Part shown: positions 27,702 to 52,152 of the stretch, one piece after another
Numbering within the stretch: position 1 is the stretch's first letter
Layout of the letters: each line of letters starts with the position of its first letter
DNA from: Exiguobacterium acetylicum
GTDB taxonomy: Bacteria > Bacillota > Bacilli > Exiguobacteriales > Exiguobacteriaceae
Length of the DNA: 64,000 nucleotides
Assembly (NCBI RefSeq): GCF_019890935.1
Contig: NZ_CP082333.1
Coordinates: forward strand, 1,824,001-1,888,000
Direction of reading: 5' to 3'
Program-made: the position numbers and the translations under genes
The notes under the pieces: model-generated
Told to the model about the DNA's origin: nothing
Seen by the model: only the letters and a program-made list of their open reading frames with translations
Databases searched by the model: none

Positions 27702-28499
27702 TCACGAACACTTATAAGAACGAATTGATCCATGAAGATCACAGATGACCGTCATGCATTCATTCCCATCGTTAAAACAAATCTGATGTGATCGTCCGTT
27801 CTTGGATGTCGTGATGTCATCAATCCACAGTTGCGAAGCATCTGCCGAAGACAGCATCGCAATTTTGTCACGAATCATGAATAAATCAAACGGTAACAGA
27901 TTCAAGGATTGAATCGTCAAACCATGTTTACGGAAGAGTGGATCAAGCTGATATTGCGAAAGACTATACAAACACTTCTCGGCCCCACCAATCAACAACT
28001 GAATCGAATGGGAAGGTTCATGACTATCGATGCGCTCTTTATGCAGGATGATTCGCCCTCGAACTCCAGACTCATTGAAAATTCGTTGCGTATCCTCTTG
28101 TGACAGGCGTGGTCCGCCTTCCTTGACCTTTAAGACGATGTGAGCGAATTCCGCGAAATCCGGTTTTCCGATTTCAAGCGCTGGGATATGACGGACTTCT
28201 TCACGTTCAATGATTTCAATCAAGTCACGCTCGACTTGGACACTGACCGTATCTGTTGAAAAGACACGGACGTCGATCACGAATTGATCAAGTACCGCAT
28301 TTACTTCGATCGTATACGTCAAATCAAGATTTTTTTCTTGTTCAACCAACAAACGATTCAAGATGAGTTGATGCAATAAATGGACTGGTGTACGTGAAGA
28401 AAACTGACTCGAATAAATCAAATGTTTTGGTCCGGTTCCTTTTGTTGCTTTCGGTCGTGCTCCGTTTAATCTATATACGTTCACTTTATAATTCAACAT
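27702..28499 (-). CDS. Protein of unknown function (265 aa)
   Basis: A 265-residue soluble protein without signal peptide, membrane helix or motif I recognise. It looks like alternating beta strands and amphipathic helices; Cys occur only in the C-terminal part (GGAEKCLYS, NDGNECMTVICDLHG and a final KCS). ATG at 28499 has AGAAGGTGAT in front; the longer frame to 28613 begins in AT-rich sequence with no ribosome binding site. It is flanked by a large AT-rich gap (28500-28690) holding only probable promoter sequence. Expression as a single gene is likely. Confidence 0.6.
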   Translation of the reverse strand: MLNYKVNVYRLNGARPKATKGTGPKHLIYSSQFSSRTPVHLLHQLILNRLLVEQEKNLDLTYTIEVNAVLDQFVIDVRVFSTDTVSVQVERDLIEIIEREEVRHIPALEIGKPDFAEFAHIVLKVKEGGPRLSQEDTQRIFNESGVRGRIILHKERIDSHEPSHSIQLLIGGAEKCLYSLSQYQLDPLFRKHGLTIQSLNLLPFDLFMIRDKIAMLSSADASQLWIDDITTSKNGRSHQICFNDGNECMTVICDLHGSIRSYKCS

Positions 28500-28689
28500 A
28501 TGATCACCTTCTCTTACCTGAAAAATCGGAATAGAGATGTTCCGTTCATATAGCGTACAATGTATTTTAATCGTTAAATATTCGTTTTCGAATATTCCAA
28601 ATTTAATATACAAATTGTAATCAAATTATGATAGAAGAATTTCAAAAACTGGTTATTTCGATGACGATGCGCTACATGTTATTTGAAAT

Positions 28690-44115: not shown

Positions 44116-44254
44116 CCCCTCTTTCTAGTTCCTGTCGTTTATTTTCCTTATCAGAACCAAAATAAAACCTGAATTTTCTAAAAATAATAAAATATTGGGA
44201 AGTCATGATTTTGAGTAGAATGGGAATAGAGAGGTATAGAAAGGAGTAATGATT

Positions 44255-44884
44255 ATGTCACATTTACTATTCATCGAAGCGAACGATAGCACACATCAAA
44301 AAAAAGGCATTAGCTCTGAATTGAACGATGCCTTTTTGAACGCGTATCGTGAAACACATCCGGATGATACAGTTACGGTTTTAAATTTATTTGAAGAACG
44401 TCTTCCCTTCTTCGATTTGAAACTGGCGAGCGCGGCAGGTCGCCTCTTTAAAGGCGAGGAATTAACTGGAGAGGATGCGACACATGCACAGCGACTTCAG
44501 GAGTATTTAAACGGTTTCTTAGATGCCGATAAGGTCGTCTTCTCATTTCCGATGTGGAACTTGACGGTTCCGGCACCGCTGCACAATTATATGGATTACC
44601 TTGCTCAAGCTGGTCAAACATTTCGTTATACGGCCGAAGGTTCGATTGGACTTGTTGAAGACAAACAAGTGCTGTTGATTCATTCACGCGGTGGTGATTA
44701 CTCGACGAAAGAGAAAGCACCGAGTGAACACGCTGTTCGCTACATGCTAGATCTATTGGCATTTTTCGGTATTGAGGATGTATCGACTGTCATTCTCGAG
44801 GGACATCAGCAATATCCGGAACGTGCCTCTGAATTAATCGAACAAGCGCTTCAAGAGTGCCGACAATTCGGTCGTAAGTTTTAA
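44255..44884 (+). CDS. azoR: FMN-dependent NADH-azoreductase / quinone reductase
   Basis: A 209-residue flavodoxin-fold enzyme that reduces quinones and azo compounds with NADH. The family marks are LLFIEANDSTHQKKGISS at the N-terminus, the FMN loop SFPMWNLTVPAPLHNYMDYL near residue 95, and HSRGGDYS. ATG at 44255 is eight bases after AAAGGAGT; an ATG two codons upstream is too close. A quinone-detoxifying role is usual in the family. Its end overlaps the end of the last PlcR-like gene by four bases on the opposite strand. Confidence 0.9.
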   Translation: MSHLLFIEANDSTHQKKGISSELNDAFLNAYRETHPDDTVTVLNLFEERLPFFDLKLASAAGRLFKGEELTGEDATHAQRLQEYLNGFLDADKVVFSFPMWNLTVPAPLHNYMDYLAQAGQTFRYTAEGSIGLVEDKQVLLIHSRGGDYSTKEKAPSEHAVRYMLDLLAFFGIEDVSTVILEGHQQYPERASELIEQALQECRQFGRKF

Positions 44885-45756
44885 GTGGGGAAGAGAACGT
44901 ACTCTGCATGTTCTTCCAGAAGCAGCTTTTCATGAAGTGGCATATCAAATGCTCGAAAGACGGAATAGGCCATCGTAAAATCGCGTTGGATAGCTGAAAG
45001 ATCGCCATTCAGTTGTTGAGTGAAATATCCTCGCTGATAATAAAAGTGACCTAAGAAATGACCATCTTCTATTTGAAGACTCTCTTGAATACCTTGTTCG
45101 GTGATTTTTAGACCGGCAAGGTATTTTTTTTGCCTAGAAAGTTGTTGTCCATAGTTATATAAAATCTTGATGCGAACCTTTTTCAATTCGATGGATGGAT
45201 AATTCGATTGAATCAATACCTGGAAGATACCCTCCGCTAAATCGAAGTCACCGTGTTCAACATACAAATTCGCTATCGCCATCTGAATTCTTATATACAG
45301 AATAGCTGATTCAAACCAAAGGTGTTCTTTATTAACTAATCGTTCGAGCAATTGAATGGCTTTTAAGTAGTGAAGTTGACTACTTTTTTCCTGAACGATG
45401 ACTTGATAATATGCTGCCAAATCACGAACTTCCTCAAAATCTACCGTTGAAAGAACATGTTCGATCATCTTTAAGGCATCAACGTATTGGTTAGTCCGCA
45501 ATAGTTCTGCTAATTGCTCGTCATACGTTTGAAAAACATCACTTCGTAAATGATCTTGAAACAACATCGACAATGGTACCTTTAATCGTTTTGCGACTTG
45601 TTGTAGCAAATCGATGGTGGGTGAATTCTTACCATTTTCGATTTTACTGATTTCAGCTTGGCTACAAATGCCTTCACACAATTCTGCTTGTGTAATCTTT
45701 TTTTCTTTTCGAATTCGCTTGATTTCATAACCAATCGAGACGGGTAAGTGATCCAT
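44881..45756 (-). CDS. PlcR-like HTH-TPR regulator, array copy 6
   Basis: A 291-residue cytosolic regulator. HTH_3 domain at residues 8-62 (ITQAELCEGICSQAEISKIE, then NGKNSPTIDLLQQ). The rest, residues 70-291, is all-helical with TPR-like repeats, e.g. HFLGHFYYQRGYFTQQLNGD near residue 235, the region that matches PlcR's peptide-binding repeats. PlcR itself senses the imported PapR heptapeptide. Last gene of the array, with GAAAGGACG before ATG and 28 bases after copy 5. It has no terminator of its own and converges on azoR with a four-base overlap. Targets and peptide unknown. Confidence 0.85.
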   Translation of the reverse strand: MDHLPVSIGYEIKRIRKEKKITQAELCEGICSQAEISKIENGKNSPTIDLLQQVAKRLKVPLSMLFQDHLRSDVFQTYDEQLAELLRTNQYVDALKMIEHVLSTVDFEEVRDLAAYYQVIVQEKSSQLHYLKAIQLLERLVNKEHLWFESAILYIRIQMAIANLYVEHGDFDLAEGIFQVLIQSNYPSIELKKVRIKILYNYGQQLSRQKKYLAGLKITEQGIQESLQIEDGHFLGHFYYQRGYFTQQLNGDLSAIQRDFTMAYSVFRAFDMPLHEKLLLEEHAEYVLFPT

Positions 45757-45784
45757 TATATCGTCCTTTCTTTCACTTCCGTCC

Positions 45785-46651
45785 TCACATTTGAAAGTGG
45801 AGAAATTGTTTTTTTCCTTTTAAGACTAACGCGGCATGATTATCATTGCCAAAGGCAGTAAATAGGGAATAGGCAAGAGTAAACGCATCATGAATATCAC
45901 ACTTTGGATAATTCAATTCTTCATAGAAACATCCTCTTTGATAAAAGAAATGTCCTAACATCGCTGTATCTTTTCGTTCGATGGATAAACAAATTCCTTG
46001 TTCAGTAACCTGTAGCCCTGTTTTAAAGTCATTTTGAAAATACAACTGTTGCGCATGATTATATATAATTTTACACTGTAATTTTTTGAGTGCGTATGTC
46101 GAATACTCATACGTTAATAAATCTTCGTAGATTTTTCGTGCATATGGATATTGACCGTTCAAATAATAATAATTCGCGACCGACATTCGAATACGTAAAT
46201 AAAGAACAGGATACTCTATTTCCATTTGGTGTTCATCCGATAAGCGAAGCAATTGGGAGATACATGTCCGGTAATCGATATCTTTTTTACCTTCGCGAGC
46301 GACCCATTCAAAATATTGAATCAATAATTGAACGGAAGGAGGAAGACTAGTCGGTAAACGTTTCATAAATTCTAGCATCTCATCATAACGACGTTGCCTA
46401 GAAAAGTCCGACAGTTGTACGTCATAGTCCTGAAATAGCTTTACTTCATTTGAATCGATAAAGATTTGATCCATTGAAATATATAATTTTTGAGACAAAC
46501 GTTGAACAAGATCGATCGTTGGCATTATTTTTCCATTTTCAATCTTACTTAATTCCGCTTGACTACATACACCCTTTGCTAATTCTTTTTGTGTTAAATT
46601 TTTCTCGATTCGTAGTTGTTTTATCTGTTTACCAAATGACTCGATACGCAA
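45785..46651 (-). CDS. PlcR-like HTH-TPR regulator, array copy 5
   Basis: A 288-residue member of the same family. HTH at residues 6-60 (LTQKELAKGVCSQAELSKIE), then helical repeats with the shared AMLGHFFYQRGCFYEELNYP near residue 232. It is the most diverged copy in the HTH: LAKGV replaces LCEGI, so the first of the two shared cysteines is missing. The start is TTG at 46651, backed by AAAGGAGGAGG seven bases away; no ATG fits. Copy 4 ends 36 bases upstream and copy 6 starts 28 bases downstream. Confidence 0.84.
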   Translation of the reverse strand: MRIESFGKQIKQLRIEKNLTQKELAKGVCSQAELSKIENGKIMPTIDLVQRLSQKLYISMDQIFIDSNEVKLFQDYDVQLSDFSRQRRYDEMLEFMKRLPTSLPPSVQLLIQYFEWVAREGKKDIDYRTCISQLLRLSDEHQMEIEYPVLYLRIRMSVANYYYLNGQYPYARKIYEDLLTYEYSTYALKKLQCKIIYNHAQQLYFQNDFKTGLQVTEQGICLSIERKDTAMLGHFFYQRGCFYEELNYPKCDIHDAFTLAYSLFTAFGNDNHAALVLKGKKQFLHFQM

Positions 46652-46687
46652 TCTTCCTCCTCCTTTCTTATATTTTTTGTAGTCATC

Positions 46688-47569
46688 TTAGTCCAGTACA
46701 GATTGTAAATAAGAACCTTTTGTCTTTAGAACGATAGTAGCGTATTGTTTCATCTGAAAAGCAGAGAATAATTCATACGCCATCGTATAATCATGTTTCA
46801 TCTGCATGACGTCCGTATCCATCCGTTCATAAAACTCACCACGTTGATAATACAAGTGCGCTAAATAGGAAATCTGTTTCAATTGTCGACTGAGATGTAT
46901 GCCTTCCTCGATGATACGAAGACCCTTTTGAGGCTGATCCATTTTATATAATAATTTTGCATAGTTATAAAGAATCTTTAGTCGTTCACTCTTTAGACCG
47001 CTGATTTCTGTAGTAATGCGTAATACTTCATCATATATTTTTTCTGCTTGTTGGTACTGTCCGCATTCCGCATATAAAATGGATAATGCCATCTTGATTC
47101 GAAAGTAAAGCACCGGATCTTTCACCCATAAATCCTCTTGGTCCATCCATCGCGTAAATAAAACGGAGGTCGTTCGATAATCAACTTGTTTTTTTCGATA
47201 TGCAATCACAATTTCATAGTAGGTCATTAATCGTTTTATTTCATCAGAAGATTCACTTACTGAGATTTTTTTCATTTCATGAAAACATTCATCGAAAGCA
47301 TTTTCGCGTAGTAAGGTACTAAGTTTTTGATCAAAAATATTCACCTGCTCCAATTGATGTTCAGAATTACTCTTTAATAATTCTGATATAGGAACACGAA
47401 GTACTGTTGCAAGTTGTTGTAATAATTCCACAGTCGGCATCGTCTTCCCGTTCTCAATCTTACTAATTTCAGCTTGACTACAAATCCCTGCACTCAGTTC
47501 CTTTTGCGATAACCCATTCAATTTTCGAAAAAATTTGAGTTTCTTACCAATTGGATGTTCGTCCTTCAT
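46688..47569 (-). CDS. PlcR-like HTH-TPR regulator, array copy 4
   Basis: A 293-residue member. HTH at residues 8-62 (LSQKELSAGICSQAEISKIE), then TPR-like helices, with ISYLAHLYYQRGEFYERMDT near residue 236, closest by eye to PlcR's own LYYQRGE. GAGGTGATTAG precedes ATG at 47569. It is the first gene after the hairpin and nine-codon ORF that separate it from copy 3, so its expression may be controlled separately from copies 1-3. Confidence 0.85.
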   Translation of the reverse strand: MKDEHPIGKKLKFFRKLNGLSQKELSAGICSQAEISKIENGKTMPTVELLQQLATVLRVPISELLKSNSEHQLEQVNIFDQKLSTLLRENAFDECFHEMKKISVSESSDEIKRLMTYYEIVIAYRKKQVDYRTTSVLFTRWMDQEDLWVKDPVLYFRIKMALSILYAECGQYQQAEKIYDEVLRITTEISGLKSERLKILYNYAKLLYKMDQPQKGLRIIEEGIHLSRQLKQISYLAHLYYQRGEFYERMDTDVMQMKHDYTMAYELFSAFQMKQYATIVLKTKGSYLQSVLD

Positions 47570-47578
47570 CTAATCACC

Positions 47579-47608
47579 TCATTGAAATAAACGAATTGCA
47601 CTTTTCAT
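47579..47608 (-). CDS. Putative nine-codon leader peptide MKSAIRLFQ
   Basis: A minus-strand ORF ATG-AAA-AGT-GCA-ATT-CGT-TTA-TTT-CAA-TGA. A perfect AAGGAGG (47616-47622) lies seven bases before its ATG and its stop is nine bases before the copy 4 start. The Shine-Dalgarno sequence is also the 3' arm of a terminator-like hairpin. Nine residues is shorter than known RRNPP pro-peptides and there is no secretion signal, so a translation-coupling leader is more likely than a pheromone. It may not be translated at all. Confidence 0.35.
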   Translation of the reverse strand: MKSAIRLFQ

Positions 47609-47636
47609 GAAAAAACCTCCTTGTTTACCAAGAAGG
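47609..47636 (-). terminator. Terminator or attenuator between array copies 3 and 4
   Basis: On the minus strand CCTTCTTG-GTAAA-CAAGGAGG (one G-T pair) is followed by TTTTTT. It lies 17 bp past copy 3. The 3' arm equals a strong Shine-Dalgarno sequence. Confidence 0.7.
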
Positions 47637-47652
47637 TCACGTATCCTTTTTA

Positions 47653-48534
47653 TTAATTCTCAAAAGTGAACAACATATACGACTCCTTCATGCGAAGAAT
47701 CATCTTCTTTCGAACGTCGTGCTCAAACGCATGAAACAGTGCATAGGCGACTGAATATTGTTTTTGGAGTGACTTCTCATCCTCACCTAAGTATTCATCA
47801 TAGTGAGCGAGTTGATAATAAAAATGACCGAATAGAAATGTATGATTATGTTTCAAACATAACTCATATCCTTTTTTGGCAATGACGATACTTTCCTCAG
47901 ACTTCCCTTGGTACTCAAGAATCTGACAATGATTGAAGTAAATTTTCAATAGTGCATTTAGATAGGTATTGGACTGAAGAACTTCGATTTCATTTTCTAA
48001 TTCCTGATACACGGATTCCGTTAAATGAAATAAGTCCTGCTCTGAATACATATTCGCAATTGCCATTTTGATTCGAATGTACAATTGAATGGACTGAGAC
48101 CAGACTTCTTTTTCAATCAACAAGTTGCTAAGTAGGCTTGCTGCTGTCCGAAAATCGATTCGATTTTGCTTTAGGTCAATGATCGTCTTGATATAGCTTT
48201 TTAAAATGTAGACTTCGACGATGCTATCCTTTTCTTGCTGGTGAATTCGCTCTAACGCCTCTTTATATTTCTCTTCTCGAAGCAAATCGGATAAGAATCG
48301 ATCTAGTTGAAAGAACTTTTCCTCATCGGTATGTTCTCGAAACAACAAAGAGATGGGAACTTGCAACCTTACAGCAAGTTGTTGTAATAAATCAACAGTC
48401 GGAGAATTTAAGCCGTTTTCAATTTTACTAATTTCAGCTTGACTACATAAATCAGCACATAGTTCTTTTTGAGAATACCCCTTTTGAATACGAAATCGTT
48501 TTAAGTTTTCTCCAATTGGATTAGCTTTAACCAT
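47653..48534 (-). CDS. PlcR-like HTH-TPR regulator, array copy 3
   Basis: A 293-residue member. HTH at residues 8-62 (YSQKELCADLCSQAEISKIE), then helical repeats ending TFLFGHFYYQLAHYDEYLGE. It is closest to copy 2: both share FRTAxSLLSNLL, the KIYFNHxQIL stretch and TFLxGHFY, which suggests a recent duplication. ATG at 48534 follows TTTGGAGG by ten bases. An in-frame ATG at 48585 overlaps the copy 2 stop and is the alternative; it would give 310 residues. Confidence 0.84.
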   Translation of the reverse strand: MVKANPIGENLKRFRIQKGYSQKELCADLCSQAEISKIENGLNSPTVDLLQQLAVRLQVPISLLFREHTDEEKFFQLDRFLSDLLREEKYKEALERIHQQEKDSIVEVYILKSYIKTIIDLKQNRIDFRTAASLLSNLLIEKEVWSQSIQLYIRIKMAIANMYSEQDLFHLTESVYQELENEIEVLQSNTYLNALLKIYFNHCQILEYQGKSEESIVIAKKGYELCLKHNHTFLFGHFYYQLAHYDEYLGEDEKSLQKQYSVAYALFHAFEHDVRKKMILRMKESYMLFTFEN

Positions 48535-48581
48535 TCTATCAAATCCTCCAAATATCTTAAAACGTCTCACTGTGTTTTGAA

Positions 48582-49478
48582 TCATGCTTCGTATTTAAAG
48601 GTAGACTCAAAAGAAAACAATAAATGTTCTTTCTTTAGGTCAACGACTAATTGTTTCGTCGTTTGAAATTCAAATGCGTGTAACAATGTATAAGCTATCG
48701 TATATGTCTTTTGAAATAAAGCGTTACCGGCAGCTTCTTGATAATTTCCTAATTGAAAATAAAAATGCCCTAACAGAAAAGTCTGTTGAGAATCTAAGCA
48801 TAAATTAATTCCTTTTTGAATAAACACGTTCGCTTCTTCAAATAAATCTTGATATAAAAGAATTTGAGCATGATTAAAATAGATTTTTATCAAAGAAGTG
48901 ATATATTGGGAACTTTTGAGTTGCTCTAATAGCGTTTCAATATCGGAATAAGTACCCGTAGTTAAATGATATAACTCATGTTCAGCATATATATTTGCAA
49001 TTGCCGTCTTAATCCGAATGAATAACGAAATGGATTCGTTCCAAACATCATACTCGTTTAAAAGGTTACTTAATAAGGAAGTGGCTGTTCTAAAATCAAA
49101 TCGATTTTGTTTCATCTCTACGATGATCTTAAAGTAAGCACTTAATATGATTAAATTCATATTCTCTTTGTAATCATACTTTGAAATGAATTGTATGACT
49201 TGATCAAAATTCTCTTCTCGAAGTTGATCTGAAATAAATTTATCAAAAAAATCTATTTCTTCATTAGCTTGAGGATTCTCGAATAAAAGTGCAATCGGAC
49301 TATTTAAACGAGCGGCAATTTTTTGCAATAATTCTACGGTTGGTGAATTTAAGCCGTTCTCGATTTTACTAATCTCAGCTTGACTACAAATACCCTCACA
49401 TAGTGCTTGTTGAGTCAATTGCTTTTCGATGCGCAATTGTTTTATTTTTGCACCGATTGATGAAGTTAAATCATCCAT
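48582..49478 (-). CDS. PlcR-like HTH-TPR regulator, array copy 2
   Basis: A 298-residue member. HTH at residues 8-62 (LTQQALCEGICSQAEISKIE), followed by TPR-like helices with TFLLGHFYFQLGNYQEAAGN near residue 235. Base composition is visibly more A+T-rich than in the flanking metabolic genes. AGGAAAGATAAAG precedes ATG and copy 1 ends 12 bases upstream, so copies 1-3 form one transcription unit. Confidence 0.85.
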   Translation of the reverse strand: MDDLTSSIGAKIKQLRIEKQLTQQALCEGICSQAEISKIENGLNSPTVELLQKIAARLNSPIALLFENPQANEEIDFFDKFISDQLREENFDQVIQFISKYDYKENMNLIILSAYFKIIVEMKQNRFDFRTATSLLSNLLNEYDVWNESISLFIRIKTAIANIYAEHELYHLTTGTYSDIETLLEQLKSSQYITSLIKIYFNHAQILLYQDLFEEANVFIQKGINLCLDSQQTFLLGHFYFQLGNYQEAAGNALFQKTYTIAYTLLHAFEFQTTKQLVVDLKKEHLLFSFESTFKYEA

Positions 49479-49490
49479 CTTTATCTTTCC

Positions 49491-50378
49491 TCACTCACTT
49501 TCATCTACAGGAAATAGCAATAGATCTGATAAATGTGTTTCAAGAATTTTTCGGTATGCGTGATTATTCGTCGCAGTGAAAAATGAGTAAGCAATTGTAT
49601 ACGCTTCTTTAATACTTTTCTCGGAAGCGTTTAACGCTTCTAAAAAGAAGCCCTTTTGATAATAAAAGTGACCAATGTATGTTAAATCTTCTAGCTCTTT
49701 GGTTTCTTTTATCGCGTGTTCAACTTCTTTTAACCCTTCCTCGAATCGCTTTAACCGATATAAGTTACGTAAGTAATTATATATGATTTTCATTTTAATT
49801 TTTTTATACTCGCGTGTACGGTAAGGTAGTTTTAATAGCGCCTCATAAATTTGATGAGAATGCGTGTAATCATCATGATTCGTATATAAAACAGCAATTG
49901 CCATCTGAATTCTGGTATAGAGAAGAAATGACTTTTCAACTAAACTTTCTTCAATGACTAATTTTAATAACGCAGAAATACATGTTCTAAAATCGATGTT
50001 TCCTTTTTCATGTAATAACAGCTTTTGATGATATCGAATTAACACTTGAATTTCAAATTCAGTATTTGCTTTTGCATATTCTTCTAAATCCTTCTCCATA
50101 GCTGAGTAAGTTTTCTCTCTCATATGGCGCAACATTCTTTGGTCTATTTCATTTAACTTTTGTGAGACGATCTCATCTTCAAAAAACAATGAAATCGGGA
50201 TGCGTAGTCTTCGACAAATCTGCTGTAACAAATCAATCGTTGGAGAATTTCGACCATTTTCGATTTTACTGATTTCAGCCTGACTACAAATTCCTTCACA
50301 AAGTGCTTTTTGTGTCATTCCTTGTTTTTTTCGTTCTTGTTTGATTTTATCACCAACAGAATGAATGACTGGATGCAT
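49491..50378 (-). CDS. PlcR-like HTH-TPR regulator, array copy 1
   Basis: A 295-residue member and first gene of the array. HTH at residues 10-65 (MTQKALCEGICSQAEISKIE), then helical repeats with LTYIGHFYYQKGFFLEALNA near residue 235 and a C-terminus HAYRKILETHLSDLLLF that parallels PlcR's HAYKEALVNKISRLL. ATG at 50378 is eight bases after GGAG; a GTG three codons earlier overlaps that site. Only about 38 bp separate it from the tRNA-Thr terminator and no clear promoter is visible there, so readthrough from the tRNA unit may supply transcription. Confidence 0.86.
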   Translation of the reverse strand: MHPVIHSVGDKIKQERKKQGMTQKALCEGICSQAEISKIENGRNSPTIDLLQQICRRLRIPISLFFEDEIVSQKLNEIDQRMLRHMREKTYSAMEKDLEEYAKANTEFEIQVLIRYHQKLLLHEKGNIDFRTCISALLKLVIEESLVEKSFLLYTRIQMAIAVLYTNHDDYTHSHQIYEALLKLPYRTREYKKIKMKIIYNYLRNLYRLKRFEEGLKEVEHAIKETKELEDLTYIGHFYYQKGFFLEALNASEKSIKEAYTIAYSFFTATNNHAYRKILETHLSDLLLFPVDESE

Positions 50379-50415: not shown

Positions 50416-50460
50416 AAAAAAGTCTTCCGTTTCAAGTATATATCACTTGAGACGGAAGAC
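50416..50460 (-). terminator. Terminator of tRNA-Thr
   Basis: A 16-bp stem with one mismatch (GTCTTCCGTTTCAAGT at 50422 / ACTTGAGACGGAAGAC at 50445) reads into TTTTTTC on the minus strand. Confidence 0.85.
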
Positions 50461-50467
50461 GTATCTA

Positions 50468-50538
50468 TGCTTCCGGCGAGAATCGAACTCGCACTGCAGC
50501 ATTACCATTGCTGAGGTCTGCCATTAACCTACGGAAGC
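50468..50538 (-). tRNA. tRNA-Thr(GGT), unusually short
   Basis: A 71-nt tRNA. Acceptor GCTTCCG pairs with CGGAAGC, discriminator A. The anticodon arm is CAGCA-ATGGTAA-TGCTG, giving anticodon GGT (Thr, ACC/ACU). The D arm is GGTT-AATGGCA-GACC and the T arm GCGAG-TTCGATT-CTCGC. The D loop and 4-nt variable loop are shorter than in a normal tRNA-Thr and resemble tRNA-Gly, while the GC start and A73 fit Thr identity. CCA is not encoded. It has its own promoter and terminator. Confidence 0.88.
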
Positions 50539-50622: not shown

Positions 50623-50820
50623 TTACAATGTAGTTTTCGTTAGCGAGTTATCATAGACGACTAAAACTGAATAATGTTCATCCGCTTTAGACGCAACGAA
50701 TGTTGAAAATTTTAATGTAATGATGGCGTTCGATCCGACCCCATTATTTTCAAAAAATTCATTTAGTCTCTCCTCTAATTCCTCAGGCGATCGCCCAACG
50801 ACTACTTTAGAATGCAACAT
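50623..50820 (-). CDS. Small protein, possibly Cse60-like (DUF2758)
   Basis: A 65-residue protein. The layout, a charged helix (SPEELEERLNEFFENN) followed by a strand pair ending in HYSVLVVYD, resembles the Cse60/DUF2758 family of small Bacillus proteins, of which one is sporulation-expressed under sigma-E. Similarity is by pattern and moderate. ATG at 50820 is eight bases after GGAG. It has its own terminator and is divergent from patB. Confidence 0.5.
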   Translation of the reverse strand: MLHSKVVVGRSPEELEERLNEFFENNGVGSNAIITLKFSTFVASKADEHYSVLVVYDNSLTKTTL

Positions 50821-50976
50821 GATCATCACTCCGTTTCGTTATGGTAGGTTCGAGTTTAGTAATTACCTGATCGTATAAATGTTAAACCTCTATTTTTTTC
50901 GACTTGCCCCACACTCTCTCTATCCGCTATGGTGAAATGGAGTCATTCAACTATTGAAGAACAGGAGTGAAGTCTG

Positions 50977-52152
50977 ATGGAACAAATCAATTTTGATGAA
51001 ACGATCGAGAAACGAAATACAGGATCCGTTAAGTGGGACGGGCTCCCTTCGCTATATGGATCAGATGAGCTGATTCCGATGTGGGTCGCCGACATGGACG
51101 TACGTCCACCACACCATTTGACAGAACGATTGACTAGACGTGTTGCTACAGGTCATTTCGGTTACTCGATGTTTGAAGACGAAGCAAAACGAGCGATTCA
51201 ACACTGGTTTCAAAAGCGATATGATGTCACAATCACTACTGATTCCATTCTCTACTCGAGCGGTGTCGTTCCAGGACTTGCGCATACCGTCCTCGCATTG
51301 ACGGAACCGAGTGATGAAATCATCATTCAGACACCGGTCTATCCTCCATTTCATCAAATCATTCAGTCTAATCAACGACAACTCATTGAAAATCCGCTTC
51401 TTTTAGACGGTGAGACGTATCAGACAGACTTTCCACTTCTCGAACGGCAAATGCGAACAGCACGTATGATGATTCTCTGTAGTCCGCATAATCCAAGCGG
51501 TAAAGTCTATCCGAGAGAAGAATTACAACAAATCGTCGAACTCGCGAAGCAACATGATGTTTATCTTGTATCCGATGAGATTCATGCGGACCTTGTCTAT
51601 ACAGGTTCCGTTCACACCCCTATTCTCGGTTTGGATTATGAAAAACTCATTTTAGTGAGTGCGCCATCCAAAACGTTCAATATTCCGGGTCTATATGCGT
51701 CTTATTTGATCGTACCTGACATCTCGATTCGTCAACAGATCGAGCGTATCCAGCAACGTCATTTCGTTCACCCGAATGCATTAGCTTCGACTGCGATTAC
51801 AACAGCATATGGTGATGTTGCGAGTGAGCAATGGCTGTCACAATTACTTATGTATTTAGAAGGCAATCGTGACCATGCCATCCGTCGGATTCGCCAAGAG
51901 ATGCCAAAATTAGACGTTGTCATTCCAGAAGCAACTTTCCTGTTGTGGATCGACTTCAAAGCACTCGAACTAGACAGTAAAACACGATCAGATTGGCTCG
52001 TCAAGGAGGCAAAAATCGCTCTAACGCATGGTTCTTCGTTCGGATCTGGTGGCGAAACGTTTGAACGTTTAAACATCGGTTGTCCTCGTGCACAATTAGA
52101 TCAGGCACTAGACCGTTTAAGCGCCGCATACCAACGGTTTTGGACGAATTAA
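50977..52152 (+). CDS. patB: Cystathionine beta-lyase / aminotransferase (PatB/MalY type)
   Basis: A 391-residue PLP enzyme of aminotransferase fold type I. The N-terminus (FDETIEKRNTGSVKWDG) and PMWVADMDVRPP are MalY/PatB signatures. PLP contacts are NPSGKVYPREEL and SDEIHADLVY, with the Schiff-base Lys in VSAPSKTFNIPG near residue 234. It cleaves C-S bonds of cystathionine or cysteine conjugates. AACAGGAG precedes ATG. Monocistronic; terminator downstream. Confidence 0.92.
   Translation: MEQINFDETIEKRNTGSVKWDGLPSLYGSDELIPMWVADMDVRPPHHLTERLTRRVATGHFGYSMFEDEAKRAIQHWFQKRYDVTITTDSILYSSGVVPGLAHTVLALTEPSDEIIIQTPVYPPFHQIIQSNQRQLIENPLLLDGETYQTDFPLLERQMRTARMMILCSPHNPSGKVYPREELQQIVELAKQHDVYLVSDEIHADLVYTGSVHTPILGLDYEKLILVSAPSKTFNIPGLYASYLIVPDISIRQQIERIQQRHFVHPNALASTAITTAYGDVASEQWLSQLLMYLEGNRDHAIRRIRQEMPKLDVVIPEATFLLWIDFKALELDSKTRSDWLVKEAKIALTHGSSFGSGGETFERLNIGCPRAQLDQALDRLSAAYQRFWTN

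Follow-up and report, generated by a model that had tools for sequence, protein, structure and literature searches.

The window analyzed here is a stretch of 64,000 nucleotides from the genome of Exiguobacterium acetylicum (assembly GCF_019890935.1, contig NZ_CP082333.1, positions 1,824,001 to 1,888,000), and it contains a tandem array of six genes encoding PlcR-type receptors of the RRNPP family. The array is most likely the local part of a genus-wide family of orphan PlcR paralogues, shaped by gene birth and loss at a single tRNA-Thr locus. As for its function, the case is evenly balanced for a role of these proteins as extra receptors that have an altered pheromone pocket and act on the operator of PlcR, a proposal built on sequence comparison.

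Six PlcR-type receptors in tandem

All six genes are located on the minus strand (44881-50378) and follow one another in the transcription order A-B-C-D-E-F. They encode receptors A (295 amino acids, 49491..50378), B (298 amino acids, 48582..49478), C (293 amino acids, 47653..48534), D (293 amino acids, 46688..47569), E (288 amino acids, TTG start, 45785..46651), and F (291 amino acids, the last gene, 44881..45756). Both the RNPP_C domain (36.9-107.6 bits versus a cut-off of 26.5) and the helix-turn-helix (HTH) domain HTH_3 scored above the Pfam cut-offs in all six copies. For the two copies tested by phmmer, the best PDB match was PlcR (2qfc; E 7.7e-20 for copy B and 1.8e-30 for copy E). Copy A, the only one folded, was modeled by AlphaFold2 with an alignment limited to the six copies. 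The model has a mean predicted local distance difference test (pLDDT) score of 88.5 and is all-helical, with an HTH and a helical C-terminus. Its top Foldseek match was the PlcR-PapR7-DNA complex 3u3w (E 2.7e-13, probability 1.00, template modeling score 0.58, root-mean-square deviation 9.5), the large deviation probably reflecting domain rotation.

A sequence-only reading of this region, made earlier, had proposed six same-strand PlcR-like RRNPP genes here and had named the absence of a superhelix of tetratricopeptide repeats (TPR) as grounds for giving this up. The genes were found as described and the structure check did not refute them; it is confirmed that they encode PlcR-type RRNPP receptors with HTH and TPR-type domains. 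Identity among the six copies is 24-48% in the sensor domain and 47-68% in the HTH. Copies B and C form the closest pair, with 48% sensor identity versus 24-36% in the other 14 pairs.

Distribution of the array in the genus

The genus was represented by 19 Exiguobacterium genomes, herein referred to by G numbers, and was compared with 19 genomes of a sister genus. Matches to RNPP_C were found in all 19 Exiguobacterium genomes, 2-7 in each, and the sister genus had no match (0/19). The array adjoins a tRNA-Thr(ggt) gene in 19/19 genomes and contains from one receptor (G005) to six receptors (the genome of the window). It is flanked by an aminotransferase gene in all 19 genomes and by an azoreductase-like gene in 18, the contig of G015 ending before it. 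An empty site could not be defined in the sister genus: in six genomes, the match most similar to the aminotransferase shares 45-47% identity, and no tRNA lies within about 1.5 kb of it.

The 64 array rows, including the six copies of the window, group into a single clade (support 100/99) in a tree of 84 receptors; the six are tandem paralogues, as had been proposed. Outside this clade are 19 chromosomal receptors, herein called cognates, and one receptor on a 110-kb contig of G014. The split between array and cognates is kept in a 33-row tree with PlcR of B. thuringiensis, in which long branches make the deepest joins unsure and the extra receptor of G014 joins PlcR. This further receptor (L009 1489-2367), closer to B. 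thuringiensis PlcR and located on what is perhaps a plasmid, is convergent with a single-copy propeptide-like open reading frame (ORF) of 49 amino acids ending in TELPFEH (L009 1343-1492).

Orthologue groups were read from the 84-receptor tree. Group A is present in 9/19 genomes, group B in six (rows of at least 240 amino acids; a B remnant of 192 amino acids remains in G001), and group C likewise in six. Copies two and three had been suggested to be the newest duplicates: B and C are indeed the closest pair, but their split is old, since each has representatives in six of the genomes included in the tree. Two HTH patterns were used to scan named genomes and gave 36 loci, 20 of which match over most of the receptor and all belong to Exiguobacterium (E. 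indicum, E. sibiricum, E. antarcticum, E. undae, E. flavidum, and others); these 20 pool array and cognate types, and the remaining 16/36 match in the HTH only.

The array is also A+T-rich, with a GC content of 0.344 versus 0.455 for the window. This had been taken earlier as a hint of a separate history, which is unsupported because the array occupies a fixed site between tRNA-Thr and the aminotransferase gene in 19/19 genomes and the cognate plcR gene is equally A+T-rich (GC 0.331). Low G+C content was dropped as a sign of foreign origin for the latter reason.

It is very unlikely that the array receptors are ligand-free DNA-binding competitors or drifting duplicates with little function. 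Such an explanation would fit the variable copy number (1-6) and the disrupted copies found in G001, G002, G007, and G011. However, at least one full-length copy is present in 19/19 genomes, and the Asn residue of the third TPR (N201 of PlcR, which we equate with N205 in the PlcRa docking legend of PMC3519770) is invariant in 64/64 array rows, as it is in 19/19 cognates. Moreover, the ratio of nonsynonymous to synonymous substitutions (dN/dS) is 0.06-0.28 for the whole gene in all 12 array orthologue pairs tested and below 1 in both the HTH and the sensor; in two HTH segments, one belonging to the damaged copy E of G001, it rises to 0.45-0.52. These ratios show purifying selection on the array genes, as estimated from the pairs compared.

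The cognate receptor and its multi-copy pheromone precursor

No secreted propeptide gene was found adjacent to the array receptors. A signal-peptide scan of the array loci of the 19 genomes, based on simple hydrophobicity and ribosome sites, yielded 11 ORFs in scattered positions, and none of them recurred next to the array, in agreement with the sequence-only reading. An ORF of 9 codons in the gap between C and D, which has a Shine-Dalgarno-like sequence, was considered as a leaderless pheromone and rejected as not conserved: its frame, start, or stop is altered in G001, G010, G016, and G017. What looks like its ribosome site belongs to a terminator-like hairpin, of which it forms the 3' arm.

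The genome of the window contains seven RNPP_C genes, the six of the array and one at C1:2727707. The seventh receptor does have an adjacent secreted propeptide gene, and together they form a cognate PlcR-PapR pair 0.85 Mb from the array. The PapR-like precursor (C1:2728352-2728690, equal to L008 5653-5991) has 112 amino acids with six tandem repeats, and its gene is convergent with that of the seventh receptor, 15 nucleotides away. A peptide encoded elsewhere had been among the earlier suggestions; a precursor of the family's pheromone does exist elsewhere, but it lies by a receptor of its own, which the suggestion had left out.

The N-terminus of the precursor resembles a signal peptide by eye, and its repeats read (A)GHLPPEYSVK. 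The core AGHLPPEY resembles PapR7, reported as ADLPFEF (PMC6568020), and PapRa7, reported as CSIPYEY (PMC3519770). A precursor was found at the corresponding place in 19/19 genomes; 17 are complete, with 2-9 repeats, and those of G006 and G012 are truncated where a contig ends. A profile built from seven precursors found one locus per genome in all 19 (split over two contigs in G006 and G012), and all other profile matches in these genomes had E > 0.2. The genome of the window has a single precursor.

In total, twelve core strings were found in the 18 genomes whose core was read: AGHLPPEY, AKTELPYEY, AKNDLPAEF, AKEIPFEF, AKELPFEF, AIERLPLEY, AIERIPLEY, AIKGLPLEY, AGNGLPLEY, AGNNLPTEF, AKQDLPYEY, and AKDLLPPEH. 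These strings do not define the mature ends of the pheromone. The core Glu is constant, except for a Lys in the last repeat of G003. Repeats are alike within most genes and differ between species, those of G010 and G016 being the least uniform, and this pattern suggests that the repeats evolve in concert.

A conserved palindrome upstream of papR and gene X

The palindrome TATTCG-TATT-CGAATAT is present in each of the 17 papR promoters that were aligned. The exact pattern TATTCGN4CGAATA was found at two sites in 17/19 genomes and at three sites in G014 and G015, and the reversed pattern had no match in the 19 genomes of the genus. In the sister genus, each of the two patterns had one match in 2/19 genomes.

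The sole exact copy in the window is located at 28579..28594, and the only other one in this genome is that in the papR promoter. The gene located 79 nucleotides downstream of the box in the window (27702..28499, minus strand, 265 amino acids), herein referred to as gene X, was found in 19/19 genomes of the genus and in 0/19 of the sister genus, a contrast that may reflect a single event. The second conserved palindrome is located 77-82 nucleotides upstream of the gene X match in 19/19 genomes, as compared by hand from the coordinates. Gene X had no match in Pfam, PHROGs, or NCBIfam, and its product folded alone gave a pLDDT of 39.4. Gene X is a candidate output of the quorum circuit.

No exact box was found within the array. 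With up to one mismatch, the genome of the window has 12 sites, compared with 7 for the reversed pattern. Because all 10 inexact sites fall inside ORFs of at least 100 amino acids, the count was limited to the two exact ones. The PlcR box of B. cereus, which we take to be TATGNAN4TNCATA, has the same 6-4-6 geometry as TATTCGN4CGAATA. This B. cereus box itself was not used further. With up to one mismatch it had 6 matches in the window versus 1.7 expected, and 2/100 shuffles reached 6; three of the matches are inside the array genes B, C, and D, and none is just upstream of an array gene.

Pheromone pocket and recognition helix

The recognition helix, presumably PlcR positions 29-37, is nearly the same in cognate and array receptors: positions 29-33, 35, and 36 are identical in 19/19 cognates and in 63/64 array rows, the 64th row lacking that part. 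The pocket differs between the two sets. In PlcR, the glutamate of PapR is reported to contact Lys89, Gln237, and Tyr275 (PMC6568020). In the alignment to PlcR, position 237 is Gln in 19/19 cognates versus His in 58/64 array rows, position 159 is Ser in 19/19 versus Met in 54/64, and position 238 is Leu in 19/19 versus Phe in 53/64; Tyr275 is present in 19/19 cognates versus 36/64 array rows. Among the six copies of the window, position 237 is His in all, Tyr275 is present only in A and D, and Lys89 is kept only in A, with Arg in E. The cognate of the same genome has Gln237 and Tyr275, with Ser at position 89. Because the contact residues Lys89, Gln237, and Tyr275 are not all retained, the array genes were assigned to PlcR paralogues and not to PlcR.

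Residues at seven pocket positions are identical within group C (6/6 rows) and within group E (7/7 rows, that of G001 lacking its start), and five pheromone cores occur among the genomes of either group (four for E when I and L count as one residue; the core of G006 was taken from G009). Over the same seven positions, groups A, B, and D each vary at one and group F at several. The alignment shows a changed pheromone pocket in the array receptors, as judged from aligned residues, and makes it less likely that they recognize the self pheromone specifically.

Several points weigh against the array receptors having an altered pocket and sharing the operator of PlcR. Gln237 is retained in the remaining 6/64 array rows (group A, four rows; group F, two rows), and the two group F rows have a cognate-like Gln237-Leu238, so that the pocket change is not absolute. 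Arg87 is kept in 62/64 array rows, and together with the 36 rows that have Tyr275 this means that the array may still bind a peptide with an acidic residue. Lys89, although a published contact, is conserved in neither set (2/19 cognates and 13/64 array rows). Between some species, divergence in groups A and F is strong (about 50-70%), and inheritance of the array is therefore not purely vertical. Finally, the palindrome is a putative operator, assigned by its conservation and by the geometry that it shares with the PlcR box of B. cereus.

One alternative is that all seven receptors bind the self pheromone and differ just in affinity or promoter preference, much like the ComR paralogues of Streptococcus salivarius with their subtle differences in selectivity. 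The retention of Arg87 and Tyr275 in these numbers, and of Asn201 in every array row, would agree with it, as would the single precursor locus per genome, whose repeats would raise the peptide supply. We consider it unlikely, given that the Gln237 contact is His in most array rows and that groups C and E keep their pocket residues where the pheromone of their own genome differs.

Pherotype divergence at the cognate locus

The cognate loci of G000 and G001 were compared by DNA identity in 150-base windows. Identity is 89-99% in the upstream flank (with one window at 81%) and 96% at the start of plcR and over most of the HTH; it falls to 64% where the HTH ends, to 49-59% across the sensor, and to 23-35% across most of papR, and returns to 90-98% beyond the papR promoter. 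A similar drop was found in four further comparisons. In the set of nine genomes whose gene X is at least 95% identical to that of the window's genome, the cognate sensor is less similar than the array-orthologue mean in 30/36 pairs. The pairs are not independent, and strong divergence is also seen in groups A and F of some species. The pairs that depart from this pattern are G006-G009, G006-G017, G009-G017, G009-G010, G009-G016, and G010-G016. For G009 and G017 (L012 and L014 versus L046 and L054), the pheromone core is nearly identical and the cognate sensors are 88.6% identical, with array orthologues just 51-76% identical, the reverse of the usual pattern.

In the cognates, position 87 is Gln where Ala or Pro precedes the pheromone Glu (5/5 genomes) and Arg where Phe, Leu, Tyr, or Thr precedes it (13/13 read); G006, with its cut precursor, also has Arg. 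Because the five Gln genomes form one clade, this pattern may be one event.

The diversity of pherotypes brings in another explanation, in which each array receptor reads the pheromone of other Exiguobacterium pherotypes or of other Bacillota on a shared operator. Twelve core strings in the genus, sensors that have diverged to 24-48% identity between copies next to near-constant recognition helices, and array orthologues that usually differ less than the cognate sensors would all be expected from it. Nevertheless, Met159, His237, and Phe238 occur in 0/19 chromosomal cognates, so that no array receptor looks like a copy of a foreign PlcR specificity, and the proposed ligands are putative, coming from comparison of sequences. 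This explanation also appears improbable. A further reading, in which up to six diverged sensors with one helix pass several peptides, including pheromones of other strains, on to the papR and gene X promoters as a decoder with many inputs and one operator, is speculative, and we would assign it a low probability. If it were true, a cell that had exchanged its own pherotype through recombination would still have the same receptors for other signals as before.

Proposed role of the array

For the evenly balanced reading, that is, extra receptors with an altered pocket on the operator of PlcR, the following mechanism can be proposed. The array would add ligand inputs to a small PlcR-PapR quorum circuit. 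Its receptors would bind the operator of PlcR itself, TATTCG-N4-CGAATA before papR and gene X, and at these boxes they may compete with PlcR or supplement it. They would respond to imported non-self peptides or act without a ligand. Autoinduction of papR and expression of gene X would then depend on several receptors and not on one.

Gene starts, predicted transcription signals, and neighboring genes

For gene C, the start at 48534 was preferred because it is preceded by GGAGG and no Shine-Dalgarno sequence is visible at the alternative ATG at 48585, which would give a protein of 310 amino acids and an overlap with B of 4 nucleotides. With preferred starts, the gaps in the array are 12, 47, 83, 36, and 28 nucleotides. 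Of the gap range of -4 to 83 given earlier, the upper end stands and the lower end depends on the upstream ATG of C; the preferred starts give 12-83 nucleotides.

The tRNA-Thr (ggt) gene is located at 50468..50538 on the minus strand. Between it and gene A, a hairpin followed by a T-run was read by eye at 50416..50460 (minus strand); it is similar in 18/19 genomes and diverged in G005, also by eye. The terminator scan was restricted to loops of at most 8 bases, and this hairpin is therefore absent from its list. Because this hairpin and only a short gap precede gene A, the array may be expressed partly by read-through from tRNA-Thr. A second terminator-like hairpin with a T-run, found by the scan, is located between C and D (47610..47638, minus strand), and the stem and T-run also follow C in G001, G002, G010, and G016 (by eye). 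It suggests a division of the array into the units ABC and DEF. The scan by itself is no evidence, as 4 terminator-like sites were found in the array region versus 4.1 expected from shuffles; a promoter scan of the same region was likewise uninformative (21 found versus 24.1 expected).

Downstream of the array, the 3' end of gene F overlaps by 4 nucleotides a convergent gene for a flavodoxin-fold protein (44249..44884, plus strand), named azoreductase-like by resemblance. On the other side, beside tRNA-Thr, is the aminotransferase gene (50977..52152, plus strand), which we take to be of the PatB type. An ORF of 68 amino acids (50623-50829), located between the aminotransferase gene and tRNA-Thr, is at least 82% identical in 19/19 genomes. 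It was rejected as a pheromone: inspection by eye showed no signal peptide, and Pfam gave no match.

Comparison with known systems

Neither the array nor the multi-copy precursor was found described in the literature searched, with most subscription papers and supplements outside its scope. By word search, Exiguobacterium is not mentioned in the main texts of PMC9765709, PMC10075063, PMC12700828, and PMC11343458; in PMC3171730, it appears in a phylogeny and in sigma-factor counts. Orphan quorum-sensing receptors are familiar, but seldom have a natural control beside them. The genus supplies 19 genomes, each with one cognate pair and with 1-6 orphan paralogues whose recognition helix is almost that of the cognate, and its pheromone type varies among close relatives. 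What the orphan receptors hear, and whether they rewire the circuit of the cognate, is testable with seven proteins, a dozen peptides, and two promoters.

One of the closest known systems is PlcR-PapR of the B. cereus group. Both systems have an HTH and TPR receptor, a Sec-type propeptide with the core [L/I]PxE[F/Y], and a palindromic 6-4-6 operator, which in Exiguobacterium is putative. Distinct pherotypes are also described for the B. cereus group in PMC3171730. In contrast to that group, the precursor of Exiguobacterium is convergent with plcR and holds 2-9 tandem copies of the pheromone, the half-site is TATTCG, with two or three exact sites per genome, and 1-6 orphan receptors are added.

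Several PlcR paralogues per genome are known from B. cereus, namely PlcRa, PlcRb, and PlcRc; PlcRa is reported to have a heptapeptide signal, PapRa7 (PMC3519770), whereas the array receptors are in tandem and have no such signal beside them. ComR, ScuR, and SarF of Streptococcus salivarius are likewise paralogous RNPP receptors with subtle differences in pheromone and promoter selectivity; they differ in belonging to the Rgg/ComR subfamily, in being three, and in having competence and bacteriocin outputs (PMC6703854). The AloR-AloP family of Paenibacillus polymyxa is expanded as well and is described as having a few receptors without a good peptide gene. Most AloR receptors have their own adjacent peptide gene (PMC7425212), and no array receptor does. 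Multi-copy propeptides are known from RRNPPA systems and have been reported also in the PlcR subfamily, with up to six copies (PMC9765709, PMC11343458); in Exiguobacterium, repeats are present in all 17 complete precursors of one genus and number up to nine. Next to these systems, the array is a set of PlcR-family paralogues, a real and conserved feature of the genus and not a new kind of system.

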